Source: Streptomyces davaonensis JCM 4913
GTDB lineage: Bacteria > Actinomycetota > Actinomycetes > Streptomycetales > Streptomycetaceae
Reading direction: 5' to 3'
Length of the DNA: 64,000 nt
NCBI RefSeq assembly: GCF_000349325.1
Contig: NC_020504.1
Coordinates: 7,358,326-7,422,325 of the forward strand
The notes under the pieces are model-generated. The model saw only the letters and a program-made list of their open reading frames with translations. It did not search any database and was not told the DNA's origin. Position numbers and translations under genes: made by a program. Shown piece after piece: positions 40,387-46,882 of this stretch (the first letter of the stretch is position 1; every line of letters starts with the position of its first letter).

Positions 40387-41844
40387 ATGTCGCTCACCCG
40401 CAGGGACTTCGCCAGGAAATCCGCCGTCACCGGAGCCGGTGTGGCGCTGGCGGGCAGTGTCGGCGCCCTCGCCACCGCTCCGAACGCCCTCGCCGCGACC
40501 GAGACCGTGACCGACGGCGCGGACCCGCTGCACGCGTACATCAGCCTCGGGTACGGGCCGCTGCTCCCCGACCCCGACGGCATCCTGGCGCTGCCGGCCG
40601 GATTCTCGTACCGCATCCTGACGCACGTCGGAAAGACCAAGCTGGAGTCCGGCGAGGGCACGCCGTCCAACCACGACGGCACCGCCGCCTTCGACGGCCC
40701 GCGCGGTACCACCCTGCTGGTCAACAACCACGAGATCGGCGGCGCCTACGCCGACGCCGACCACCCCGTCCCGCTCGCCGAGGGCCTGGTCTACGACCCC
40801 GCAGCGGCCGGTGGCTGCACGGTCGTCGAGGTCCGCCCCGGCGGCAAGGTCGCCGAGTGGGTCGGCATCGCCGGCACCTCCACCAACTGTGCGGGCGGCA
40901 CCACGCCTTGGGACACCTGGCTCACCTGCGAGGAGACCGAGGACAAGGCCGGCTCCAAGGGCATGACCAAGGACCACGGCTATGTCTTCGAGGTCGACCC
41001 CGCCGACCGCCGCGCCAACAAGAACCCCAAGCCAATCAAGGCGCTGGGCCGCTACGCCCACGAGGCCGTCGTCATCGACCCCAAGCGCGGCCACGCCTAT
41101 CTGACCGAGGACGCCTCCAACCCCAACGGCCTGCTGTTCCGCTGGACCCCGCCCGAGGGCTACCGGCACGGCCGCGGCAGGTTCCGCACCCTCGCCGACG
41201 ACGCGGGCCGCCTCCAGGCCTCCAAGTGCTTCGACTCCGGCGGCCAGTTCGTCGACGACCTCTCCCGCGCCACGAAGATCGGCACGGTGTACGGCGTGGA
41301 CTGGATCGACGTGCCCGACCGGGACGCGAAGACCACCTCCGTGCGCAAGCAGTTCACCGCCGGCCAGATCACCCGCTGCCGCAAGCTGGAGGGCATGTGG
41401 TGGGGTGACGGCGGCGCGTACATCGTCTCCTCCTACGCCCGCGCGGAGAGCCCCGGTCAGGCGCACGACGGCCAGGTCTGGTTCTACGACCCCAAGCGCC
41501 GCACCCTCACCCTGAAGGTCCTCCTCGGCGTGAACGCCGACCCCGCTGATCCCTCGGCGGTTGGCGCCTTCGACGGCCCCGACAACATCACCGTCTCCCC
41601 CTACGGCGGCCTGATCATCGCCGAGGACGGCGAGGGCATCCAGCACCTGTTCGGCGCCACCGACCGCGGCCGCACCTACCCGATCGCCCGCAACGACCTG
41701 AACATCGGCACCGAGGAGGAGCCGGAGTACAGCGAGTTCACCGGCGTCACCTTCTCGCCCAGCGGCCGCACCCTGTACGCCAACATCCAGGACCCGGGCA
41801 TCATGCTCGCGATCACCGGACCCTGGAAGCGCCAGGGGCGGTAG
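40387..41844 (+). CDS. phoX: PhoX-type phosphatase with Tat signal (DUF839)
   Basis: A 485-residue exported protein. The N-terminus MSLTRRDFARKS is a twin-arginine signal (cleavage about residue 37, ALAAT). The PhoX/DUF839 core includes NNHEIGGAY, TCEETEDKAG, RYAHEAVVID and DNITVSPYGGLIIAEDGEG, with the glutamates that hold calcium and iron. It releases phosphate from organic esters outside the cell. ATG 40387 follows CAGGAGA. The PHO box upstream indicates induction under phosphate starvation by PhoRP. Confidence 0.92.
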   Translation: MSLTRRDFARKSAVTGAGVALAGSVGALATAPNALAATETVTDGADPLHAYISLGYGPLLPDPDGILALPAGFSYRILTHVGKTKLESGEGTPSNHDGTAAFDGPRGTTLLVNNHEIGGAYADADHPVPLAEGLVYDPAAAGGCTVVEVRPGGKVAEWVGIAGTSTNCAGGTTPWDTWLTCEETEDKAGSKGMTKDHGYVFEVDPADRRANKNPKPIKALGRYAHEAVVIDPKRGHAYLTEDASNPNGLLFRWTPPEGYRHGRGRFRTLADDAGRLQASKCFDSGGQFVDDLSRATKIGTVYGVDWIDVPDRDAKTTSVRKQFTAGQITRCRKLEGMWWGDGGAYIVSSYARAESPGQAHDGQVWFYDPKRRTLTLKVLLGVNADPADPSAVGAFDGPDNITVSPYGGLIIAEDGEGIQHLFGATDRGRTYPIARNDLNIGTEEEPEYSEFTGVTFSPSGRTLYANIQDPGIMLAITGPWKRQGR

Positions 41845-41897
41845 TTAATTCGCTCGCCCACCGAATGCTGCGCCTCCTACAGTGAGTTCACGACGTC

Positions 41898-41980
41898 ACG
41901 CACCTCCCGGTGCGATGGCAGCGGCTACTTCTTTCTCCAAGAATCCGACGCCGCAGCCGACTTGAACTCGGGAGGCGCAG
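41898..41980 (+). ncRNA. Y-RNA-like RNA 1 (without tRNA module)
   Basis: The first of two related structured RNAs upstream of the Ro gene. Ends pair as GCACCTCCCG (41900-41909) with CGGGAGGCGC (41969-41978), one mismatch. Its 5' half (CCCGGTGCGATGGCAGCGG then CTACTTC) matches the 5' half of the second RNA, and its 3' half (GCCGACTTGAACTCGGG) resembles that RNA's 3' half, but the tRNA-like part is missing. A TACAGT at 41878-41883 may be its -10. Exact ends are unknown. Confidence 0.7.
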
Positions 41981-41985
41981 CTCAT

Positions 41986-42137
41986 GGTGGGTGCCCGGTG
42001 CGCAGGCAACGGTTACTTCATTGGATCAGAAGGTTGCGGGTTCGAATCCCGTCATCGACTTCGGGTCGGTGTAGCTCAATCGGATAGAGCATCTGACTAG
42101 TCCGTCGCCGACTCCTGATCTCGGGCATCCACCTTTT
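41986..42137 (+). ncRNA. yrlA: YrlA-type Y RNA 2 with circularly permuted tRNA module
   Basis: Terminal stem GGTGGGTGCCCG (41986-41997) / CGGGCATCCACC (42122-42133), followed by TTTT. The internal part is a tRNA in permuted order: anticodon-stem 3' strand TCAGA, 5-base variable loop, T arm GCGGG-TTCGAAT-CCCGT, acceptor strand CATCGAC, a TTCGG loop, acceptor strand GTCGGTG, D arm GCTC...GAGC, and anticodon-stem 5' strand TCTGA. This is the layout known for bacterial YrlA RNAs that bind Ro proteins; the Ro gene starts 56 bases later. Confidence 0.88.
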
Positions 42138-42192
42138 GCGCGCCTTCCTCCGAAGACGATCCGAAACCGCTTTGAATTCGGGGGAATTCAGC

Positions 42193-43785
42193 ATGTCCCG
42201 CTTCAACATCCGGAACATCCGGACCGCCAAGGCCCCGCCGACCTCGCGCGTGACCTCCACCGGCCGCGTCCTGCGTACCTACGAGGGCGGCCGTGGCCGT
42301 GAGCGCGACGCGCGCTCCGAGCTCTTCCTGCTCGCGGTCGCCAACTTCGTCTCCCAGCAGACCTTCTACGAGTCCGGCGACGCCCGCGACGACCGCTTCC
42401 AGAAGCTGGTGCGCGAACTCGCCGTCACCGACCCGGAGTGGACGGCCGGTCTGCTCGGCTGGCTGCGCGGCGAGGGCAACCTCCGTACCGCCGCCGTCGT
42501 GGGCGCCGCCGAGTACGTCAAGGCGCGGCTGGACGCGGGCGTCACCGAGGGCCCGTCGAACCGGCGGGTCGTGGACTCGGTGCTCCAGCGGCCCGACGAG
42601 CCCGGCGAACTGCTGGCGTACTGGACCGCGACGTACGGCCGTAACGTCCCCAAGCCCGTCAAGCGGGGCATCGCCGACGCCGTACGGCGGCTCTACAGCG
42701 GCAAGTCGCTGCTGAAGTACGACACCGCGTCCAAGGGCTACCGCTTCGGCGACATCCTCAACCTGGTGCACGCGGCGCCGGACCCGGCGAAGTCCTGGCA
42801 GGGCGAGCTGTTCCAGTACGCCCTGGACCGGCGGCACAACCCCGACACCGCGGTGCCGCCCGCGTCCAACCGGACGCTGGTCGCCCACCGCGAGCTGATG
42901 GCGCTGCCCGTCGAGGAGCGGCGTGCGGTCGTGACGTCGGACGGCGGGGCCGAGCGGCTGGCCGCGGCCGGGATGACCTGGGAGGCGCTGGCGGGCTGGC
43001 TCCAGGGGCCGATGGACAAGGCGGCCTGGGAGGCCGTCATCCCGTCGATGGGCCCGATGGCGCTGGTGCGGAACCTGCGGAACTTCGACGAGGCGGGTGT
43101 CTCGGACGAGGTCGCCGCGCAGGTCGCCGATCGGATCAGCGACCCGGCGGAGGTCGCGCGCTCGCGGCAGTTCCCGTTCCGGTACCTGGCCGCCTACCAG
43201 CACGCGCCGTCGCTGCGCTGGTCCTACCCGCTGGAGCGGGCGCTCGGCCACTCGCTGGCCAACGTGCCCGCGCTGCCCGGCCGGACGCTGGTGCTCGTCG
43301 ACCGCTCGGGTTCGATGTTCTACTCGCGGCTGTCGGACCGCTCGGAGCTCAACCGGGCCGACGCGGCGGCGATCTTCGGTACGGCGCTCGCGCTGCGGGC
43401 GGCGGACGCGGACCTCGTCGAGTTCGGCACCACGAGCCGGCGGCTGACCTTCGGCAAGGGCGAGTCGGTGCTCAAGGTCCTGGAGCGGTTCGGCGACCTG
43501 GGCGGCACCGACACCACCTCGGCGGTCCGCGCGCACTACCGCGGCCAGGACCGGGTGCTGATCGTCACGGACGAGCAGTACGCGTTCAACCGCCACGGCG
43601 GCCCGACCGAGCAGATCCCGGCGGACATCCCGGTCTACACCTGGAACCTGGCCGGGTACCGGGCGGGCCACGGTCCGTCCGGCGTGCCCAACAGGCACAC
43701 CTTCGGCGGCCTCTCGGACGCCGCGTTCCGGATGGTGCCGCTGCTCGAGAGCGCCCGGGACGCCGACTGGCCCTGGGTCGCCTGA
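42193..43785 (+). CDS. rsr: Ro60/TROVE-domain protein (Rsr)
   Basis: A 530-residue Ro ortholog. The N-terminal HEAT-repeat TROVE ring (TYEGGRGRERDARSELFLL, FVSQQTFYESGDARDDRF) binds Y RNA and misfolded RNA; the C-terminal von Willebrand A domain has the MIDAS motif VLVDRSGSMF near residue 370. In Deinococcus and Salmonella, Rsr works with Y RNA and PNPase in RNA processing and decay under stress. ATG 42193 follows GGGGA. Two Y-like RNAs lie directly upstream, and a hairpin follows the stop. Confidence 0.95.
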   Translation: MSRFNIRNIRTAKAPPTSRVTSTGRVLRTYEGGRGRERDARSELFLLAVANFVSQQTFYESGDARDDRFQKLVRELAVTDPEWTAGLLGWLRGEGNLRTAAVVGAAEYVKARLDAGVTEGPSNRRVVDSVLQRPDEPGELLAYWTATYGRNVPKPVKRGIADAVRRLYSGKSLLKYDTASKGYRFGDILNLVHAAPDPAKSWQGELFQYALDRRHNPDTAVPPASNRTLVAHRELMALPVEERRAVVTSDGGAERLAAAGMTWEALAGWLQGPMDKAAWEAVIPSMGPMALVRNLRNFDEAGVSDEVAAQVADRISDPAEVARSRQFPFRYLAAYQHAPSLRWSYPLERALGHSLANVPALPGRTLVLVDRSGSMFYSRLSDRSELNRADAAAIFGTALALRAADADLVEFGTTSRRLTFGKGESVLKVLERFGDLGGTDTTSAVRAHYRGQDRVLIVTDEQYAFNRHGGPTEQIPADIPVYTWNLAGYRAGHGPSGVPNRHTFGGLSDAAFRMVPLLESARDADWPWVA

Positions 43786-45670: not shown

Positions 45671-46882
45671 CTACAGCGCCTGGGCCGCGGGCTTCACCAT
45701 CCCTCGGACCGTGCGGGACTTCACGAAGTCGCCCATGGCCGTCATGTCCCACTCGCCGGAGAACTGGCGGATGAGCTTGGCCATCATCACGCCGGTCTGG
45801 GGTTCGGCGGAGGTCAGGTCGAAGCGGACCAGTTCCTCGCCGGTCAGTCCGTCGATCAGGCGGCAGTAGGCCTTGGCGACCTCGGTGAACTTCTGGCCCG
45901 AGAAGGAGTTCACGGTGAAGACCAGGCCGGTGACCTCCTGGGGGAGCCGGCCGAGATCCACGGTGATGACCTCGTCGTCGCCTCCGCCCTCGCCGGTGAG
46001 GTTGTCGCCGGAGTGGCGGATGGCGCCGTTCACGATCTGGAGCTTGCCGAAATAGCAGCTGTCGATGTGATTGCGCTGCGGGCCGTAGGCGATGACCGAG
46101 GCGTCCAGGTCGATGTCCTTGCCGCGGTACGCGGGCTCCCAGCCGAGGCCCATCTTGACCTGGGAGAGCAGGGGGCGGCCGCCCTTGATGAGGGAGACGG
46201 TCTGGTTCTTCTGGAGGCTGACCCTGCCCTTGTCGAGGTTGATCTTTCCGGCGCCGGGGGCGGCGGCCGGGGCGGGGGGTGCGGCCGGGGGCATCTGGGG
46301 GGCGGGCGGGGTGACGGGGGGTGCCATGGTGGGCTGGGGCGGGGCGACCGGGGCCGGTGTCGGCGTGGGTGCCGGTGTGGGTTCCTCGACCGAGACGCCG
46401 AAGTCGGTGGCGATGCCGGCGAGGCCGTTGGCGTAGCCCTGGCCGACGGCTCGGGCCTTCCAGGCGCCGTTGCGGAGGTAGATCTCCACGATGACCAGGG
46501 CGGTCTCGGTGCCGAGCTGCGGGGGTGTGAAGGTGGCCAGGGCGGAGTTGTCGTCGGCGTTGCGGATGGTGGCCGTCGGTTCGATGCCCTGGAAGGTCTG
46601 GCCGGCGGCGTCCGGGCTGGCGGTGACGACGATCTTCTCGATGCCGGGGGGCACGGCCGTGGTGTCGACCGTGATCGCGTCGGGGGCCGTGCCGCCGCCG
46701 GAGCGGTACGTCACGCCGGGGCCCGTGGGCTGGTTGTAGAAGATGAAGTCGTCGTCCGAGCGCACCTTGCCGTCGGCGGTGAGCAGCAGGCTCGATACGT
46801 CGAGCCGCACCGGGGCGGTGACGTCCACCGTCACGCGGGCGACGGGCAGAGGGATGTTCGAGCCGGGGGTCATAGCTGTCAT
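45671..46882 (-). CDS. Double TerD-domain protein (tellurium-resistance family)
   Basis: A 403-residue protein of two TerD-like halves. Residues 1-165 hold the first (SLLLTADGKVRSDDDFIFYN, VVIVEIYLRNGAWKARAVGQGYANGL) and residues 215-403 the second (VSLIKGGRPLLSQVKMGLGW, DDEVITVDLGRLP). They are joined by a linker of about 50 residues made almost only of proline, alanine, threonine and methionine. TerD domains bind calcium and act in stress and phage-related networks. Other ter genes are absent here, so the role is open. Confidence 0.9.
   Translation of the reverse strand: MTAMTPGSNIPLPVARVTVDVTAPVRLDVSSLLLTADGKVRSDDDFIFYNQPTGPGVTYRSGGGTAPDAITVDTTAVPPGIEKIVVTASPDAAGQTFQGIEPTATIRNADDNSALATFTPPQLGTETALVIVEIYLRNGAWKARAVGQGYANGLAGIATDFGVSVEEPTPAPTPTPAPVAPPQPTMAPPVTPPAPQMPPAAPPAPAAAPGAGKINLDKGRVSLQKNQTVSLIKGGRPLLSQVKMGLGWEPAYRGKDIDLDASVIAYGPQRNHIDSCYFGKLQIVNGAIRHSGDNLTGEGGGDDEVITVDLGRLPQEVTGLVFTVNSFSGQKFTEVAKAYCRLIDGLTGEELVRFDLTSAEPQTGVMMAKLIRQFSGEWDMTAMGDFVKSRTVRGMVKPAAQAL

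Follow-up and report, generated by a model that had tools for sequence, protein, structure and literature searches.

The question raised by this locus is how two RNAs encoded in tandem upstream of a Ro protein gene are related to each other, and whether both serve the protein. The window, which is the whole stretch of DNA analysed, comprises 64,000 nucleotides from Streptomyces davaonensis JCM 4913 (contig NC_020504.1, positions 7,358,326 to 7,422,325). RNA 1 and RNA 2 are found on the same strand as rsr with a gap of 7 nt between them, and the rsr start is 58 nt past the end of RNA 2, so that both lie, like other Y RNAs, beside an rsr/TROVE gene (Table 1). By sequence the rsr product resembles 9l5y and 9kop, two TROVE proteins of solved structure (E 9.4e-29). 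The ends GGTGCG..TACTTC and GA.CTCGGG are common to the two RNAs. They are quite probably paralogous Y RNAs, transcribed together upstream of rsr from a single promoter into a tandem precursor, and both partners of Rsr.

Table 1. Features of the rsr locus, in window coordinates
Feature	Position	Strand	Remark
TACAGT, -10-like box	41878..41883	+	candidate, probably the sole promoter of the array
RNA 1, short Y RNA, type B, without D, T or acceptor arm	41900..41977	+	
RNA 2, YrlA-type Y RNA, type C, with permuted tRNA module	41985..42134	+	
RNA 2 basal Y stem	5' strand 41986..41998, 3' strand 42120-42133	+	
RNA 2 anticodon stem	3' half TCAGA 42026..42030, 5' half TCTGA 42092-42096	+	
RNA 2 T arm	42036..42052	+	
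RNA 2 acceptor stem CATCGAC/GTCGGTG, TTCGG closing loop	42053..42071	+	
RNA 2 D arm	42074..42090	+	
rsr 5' leader hairpin around GGGGG ribosome-binding region	42145..42186	+	predicted fold
rsr, Ro60/TROVE protein, 530 aa	42193..43785	+	PF05731 E 5.5e-13

Folds of RNA 1 and RNA 2

The original prediction of two Y-type RNAs upstream of rsr is borne out by model scores and by folds. RNA 1 scored 92.0 bits against the R1 model and RNA 2 168.5 bits against the R3 model (41985-42135); the alignments behind both models contain the window, so the scores express fit and not independent discovery. Both predicted folds are stable, that of RNA 1 at -33 kcal/mol (z -2.7, with one of 200 shuffles equally stable) and that of RNA 2 at -67.1 kcal/mol (z -3.8, with none of 200).

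In RNA 1 the 5' and 3' ends form the basal stem and internal loop of a Y RNA, as found in both folds and pair counts. The alignment of the 52 elements of its type, type B (alignment A1), has 98.5% of cells paired. Twelve cells in the 16 pairs are doubly changed against 1.8 in shuffles (none of 500 reached this), while only two of the 16 pairs are compensated, which 214 of 500 shuffles reach, and the number of pair types over the 16 pairs of A1 is no higher than in shuffles; the support is weaker than for type C. T-arm and D-arm motifs together were found in none of the 52 type B elements, and RNA 1 lacks the arms of YrlA. It is a short Y RNA and not a YrlA RNA.

The claim that RNA 1 lacks any tRNA part holds for the D, T and acceptor arms. 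The apical hairpin, however, resembles an anticodon arm in 19 of the 52 type B elements, against 0.4 expected in a loop test that required the TACTTC motif (present in 20 of 21 elements from other genera). Loop sizes vary among these hairpins; 23 of the 52 elements have a 7-nt loop in their best hairpin, nine gave no hairpin, and the hairpin of RNA 1 itself has, by its best stem, a 5-nt loop. The type B hairpin as an anticodon arm is a lead.

Folded alone, RNA 2 has as its minimum-energy structure the Y stem, a 5-bp anticodon stem, the T arm, the acceptor stem and the D arm in permuted order, and the cloverleaf with a TTCGG-closed acceptor that had been proposed was recovered in this way. The class I alignment (A3) comprises 39 of 52 type C sequences, with L022, L041, L061 and ten class II rows left out. 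Here 21 of 41 pairs are compensated and 114 cells are doubly changed against 26.7 in shuffles, and none of 500 shuffles reached either value. Among the 39 sequences both sides have changed in 7 of the 13 pairs of the basal Y stem, in all five pairs of the anticodon stem and in five of the seven acceptor pairs. The T arm has 100% of cells paired and four of its five pairs invariant; the D arm is conserved yet without covariation because all four pairs are invariant. Slid versions of the structures had 31-52% of cells paired (class I and class II of type C, and type A), a comparison that favours the tested structures since these were derived from the alignments or from one row of them. Covariation supports the permuted fold of RNA 2, as had been anticipated for the cloverleaf.

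The suggested covariance search for YrlA gave a divided answer. With relaxed thresholds the Rfam model RF02553 matched 42009-42114 over its full length, positions 1-114 of 114 (E 9.1e-9). The 44.8 bits fall short of the gathering score, 69, and a default Rfam scan accordingly gives nothing in the window. RNA 2 is therefore called YrlA-type by structure and synteny and not a member of the Rfam family. None of the 17 loci with related RNAs had a YrlA match at the gathering score in the Rfam scan, and such RNAs would stay unannotated by the default scan; the type C elements of two class II relatives (L026 and L031) had no YrlA match even at E 0.01. Covariation, fold and RF02553 alignment all give RNA 2 the permuted D, T and acceptor arms of YrlA, with which it also shares the linkage to rsr, the basal Y stem and the closed acceptor loop. 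The RF02553 consensus structure has no anticodon hairpin, whereas type A, described below, has one. RNA 2 as a real tRNA gene was rejected, as ARAGORN found no gene in the window.

Neither permuted tRNA mimicry nor a pair of Y RNAs next to rsr is new in itself. Each species is reported by Chen (2014) to have at least one Y RNA with a tRNA-like domain. The rsr-yrlBA-rtcBA operon of Salmonella has two Y RNAs beside rsr, of which YrlA has a tRNA-like domain (PMC7790460, in the sections available). The Y RNAs of the window differ in standing in tandem upstream of rsr, and neither rtcA nor rtcB is present among the five ORFs scanned (rsr and the four around it). The tRNA-like module of Salmonella YrlA, whose crystal structure is 6CU1, has been superposed on tRNAs in circularly permuted order (PMC11472068, partial text).

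Layout and history of the arrays

TROVE matches numbered 75 and were found in 68 of 121 genomes of the genus. Seventy of these loci were fetched and analysed together with the window; the four matches left out are the second in G016, the two in G030 and the one in G032. By position, the 71 rsr loci contain 36 elements of type A, 52 of type B and 54 of type C; two single YrlA-like elements were set apart from the last, giving 52 thereafter. The architecture tree comprises 69 of the 71 loci (L034 and L064, with partial matches, were left out). Thirty-one have the layout A-B-C, 19 B-C, six A-B, two A-C, two A-B-B and two a single element, and seven are without a called element, with one weak B-like match each. 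Three Y RNAs in tandem, A-B-C, are the most frequent arrangement. One locus counted as B-C, L025, is on a contig that starts 5 nt before B, so A may be cut off.

The type B model matched 66 of the 121 genomes, including 65 of the 68 with rsr (65 with both, three with rsr only, one with B only and 52 with neither; Fisher p 2.3e-29). The match was weak in G038 (49.5 bits) and G041 (46.6 bits), and that of G091 is located away from rsr. Given the layout counts and the conservation of B, the RNA 1/RNA 2 pair is ordinary for the genus.

The B-C loci are interspersed with A-B-C loci across the rsr tree. Type A has therefore probably been lost several times, the window lineage included. The smallest well-supported set with the window has eight rows, four A-B-C and four B-C, the uncertain L025 among the latter. 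In the genome of the window the type A model at E 0.001 matched RNA 2 and two tRNAs in tandem, and nothing else.

Layouts in other families were entered by hand for 16 named loci. Short Y RNAs stand beside T-arm-bearing ones in Planomonospora, Planotetraspora, Catellatospora, Nonomuraea and Glycomyces, and the arrays are longer, with five Y RNAs in Planomonospora (both among the matches listed). Two named records of Streptomyces griseus share the B-C arrangement of the window. Since B is present genus-wide and other families have short Y RNAs too, RNA 1 is an old paralogue and not the product of module loss within the genus. The original prediction, that RNA 1 arose here by loss of the tRNA module or RNA 2 by its gain, did not hold up. 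It is very improbable that RNA 1 represents a degenerating copy of its neighbour RNA 2 which lost the module in the window lineage; the common ends would agree with such a copy, but B is kept at the same place throughout the genus with nearly all cells paired, and the short Y RNAs of other families speak against it as well. RNA 1 as a relic was rejected on the conservation of B, the scattered absence of A and these same short Y RNAs. The array would rather descend from a larger actinomycete array, whose third member was probably lost in the window lineage.

Another kind of rsr, preceded by a single short Y-like match (R1 38-53 bits), was observed in L001, L002, L003, L004, L006, L009 and L011. 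Five of these genes are in genomes with another TROVE gene, while those of L002 and L009 are the sole TROVE match there. A type B Y RNA was also found in a genome without a TROVE match (L090:2015-2090, genome G066). The ORF beside it has a start which by eye resembles that of the window ORF 45671-46882 (-), about 2 kb downstream of rsr; rsr has perhaps been deleted in G066. In the Catellatospora array an Rfam tRNA call (36.1 bits) runs across the junction of two Y elements (L209:5131-5276).

tRNA resemblance of the modules

The reference set for RNA 2 was the 60 distinct tRNAs predicted in its own genome, one of unknown type being set aside. The nearest is tRNA-Arg(ACG), with 48.5 against 36.5 for the next and identical runs of 19 and 15 nt. 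The sequences CGGATAGAGCATCTGACTA and GGATCAGAAGGTTGC are common to RNA 2 and this tRNA and contain the entire anticodon stem and both edges of the loop; judged from the sequence, the anticodon is replaced in RNA 2 by the Y stem. Compared with the 6CU1 module, RNA 2 is clearly nearest one isoacceptor, and some relatives mimic a class II tRNA-Leu.

The likeness to tRNA-Arg(ACG), with its long identical runs, would also suit a tRNA decoy, in which the Arg-tRNA-like body of RNA 2 engages tRNA nucleases or modification enzymes and Rsr acts as carrier. YrlA is a substrate of DusA and TruB besides binding PNPase (PMC8394870, in part), and a role as nuclease inhibitor has been suggested for it (PMC7790460, same sections). 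We regard the decoy as improbable, as RNA 2 is without an anticodon and the closest tRNA changes with the species and is unclear in 34 of the 52 type C modules. The best amino acid was ahead by at least 5, a chosen margin without a null model, in 18 of 52 type C and 7 of 36 type A modules. One source tRNA for every module was rejected on these counts. With so few clear leads, we assign a tRNA identity to the window (Arg), to class II (Leu) and, more weakly, to the orphans (Glu), and to no others.

Eleven relatives have a type C element with a D arm of tRNA-Leu type, and Leu was clear in nine class II modules. The class II alignment (A4) comprises ten of the eleven, L061 being left out. Nine of its 43 pairs are compensated, which none of 500 shuffles reached. 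Four of five pairs of the variable arm are compensated in these ten, and the arm is shortened in L048.

Type A (alignment A2, 35 of 36 elements, without L050) has 11 of 38 pairs compensated, a number again reached by none of 500 shuffles. Directly after TACTTC follows a 5-bp hairpin with a 7-nt loop, which RNAalifold recovered unaided and whose loop reads CU-NNU-AA in 31 of 36 elements. A CU-NNU-AA loop would suit t6A modification. The anticodon-loop rule fits 33 of 36 type A elements (0.9 expected) and one of 52 type C elements (1.5 expected). Type A keeps a complete anticodon arm, so that the D arm lies on one side of the Y stem and the anticodon arm on the other.

Orphan Y RNAs of type A were observed away from rsr in L071-L082, including the genomes G062, G063 and G097, whose rsr loci are without A. 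Eight of these 12 are nearest tRNA-Glu and nine have an anticodon-like arm; of 15 orphan modules Glu was best in eight and clear in three. The type A model matched, with its positions 27-105, the junction of tandem tRNA-Asn genes (57.6 bits), which suggests that the permuted modules may have arisen from such a junction. Tandem tRNA-Asn genes with 4-nt spacers are found at L091:589-740 and L092:207-514.

Tentatively, and with somewhat less than even confidence, the rsr arrays of actinomycetes can be read as one Ro-binding stem with varied tRNA imitations (Arg-like or class II Leu-like in type C, a whole anticodon arm in type A) that would form a set of adaptors for Rsr. The unusually varied imitations in the relatives look worth study, and the varied modules permit a direct test of the purpose of the tRNA mimic. 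No paper on Streptomyces Y RNAs was found in the literature searched, outside which key Y RNA papers lie, and such RNAs may already be published. Apparently new are the Y RNAs with a whole anticodon arm, those that imitate tRNA-Leu including its long variable arm, and those linked to metK, all outside the window; the actinomycete Y RNA arrays also look like a new variant on the literature searched.

The metK-linked Y RNAs are a further type, with the hairpin GGTGGAG..GCGGTGAA, that adjoins metK away from rsr in L083-L088 (for example L083:2049-2148 and L088:1813-2079, with a variant at L089:2074-2169). metK was confirmed by Pfam in L083, L087, L088 and L089, and priA is on the opposite side in L083 and L089. 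L085, L086 and L088 have a second, T-arm-bearing Y RNA beside the metK-linked one. The pattern was found in six of the 121 genomes, and the genome of the window had no match. Of 13 named loci without rsr, 8 contain a metK start. A separate pattern scan of named records, for Y RNAs like those of the window, gave at least 119 stretches; 80 of them were listed and used, and among the matches listed the records with this RNA are mostly Streptomyces.

Transcription of the array and possible roles

From 41850 to the start of rsr, TANNNT occurs once, as the TACAGT box 17 nt before the RNA 1 stem. In the related loci this loose motif stands before 55 of 62 first Y elements and before one of 93 inner ones, and most often lies exactly 7 nt ahead of the type A stem. 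The array is therefore probably one transcript. Stem-to-stem gaps are 10-23 nt between A and B and 7-12 nt between B and C. A generic scan of 41700-42300 found no sigma-70 consensus promoter or terminator. On sequence grounds the pattern suggests a single precursor that is cut into Y RNAs and perhaps continues into rsr.

With the tandem precursor as the preferred reading, RNA 1 and RNA 2 would each fold separately and be cut out of the common transcript. By analogy with known Y RNAs, Rsr would bind both through the shared basal region, plausibly giving it the two partners that had been proposed. RNA 1, with its small hairpin only, would mainly occupy, and so gate, the Rsr ring. The tRNA-Arg-like module of RNA 2 may link the Rsr particle to a tRNA-binding partner, comparable to YrlA and PNPase in RYPER. 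The functional model for RNA 2 is Deinococcus radiodurans, in which a Y RNA tethers Rsr to PNPase (PMC3997798 and PMC8394870, each in part); binding of PNPase by RNA 2 would be by analogy. As of 2020 this species was the only one in which the roles of Rsr and Y RNAs in bacteria had been studied (PMC7790460). With one RNA lacking and one having a tRNA module in the same organism, gate and tether functions would be genetically separable.

The Y elements may also act in cis, Rsr binding B and C on its own transcript and thereby lowering rsr expression, helped by the leader hairpin. Their position on the rsr strand, so close before the rsr start, would allow this. No TANNNT was found within 60 nt before rsr in any of the 52 loci with C, and TTCGGGG, over the ribosome-binding region, is present within 75 nt of the rsr start in 52 of 62 loci. 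This autoregulation is nevertheless unlikely, though less so than the decoy, as the shape of the predicted leader hairpin varies between loci, orphan Y RNAs of like kind occur far from rsr, and Y RNAs elsewhere in bacteria work as separate RNAs (PMC8394870, in the part available). The cis and trans roles of the Y elements are mutually compatible. A palindrome, GAATTCGGGGGAATTC (42174-42189), lies over the rsr ribosome-binding region of the window, and a close pattern is found in 41 of 62 loci.
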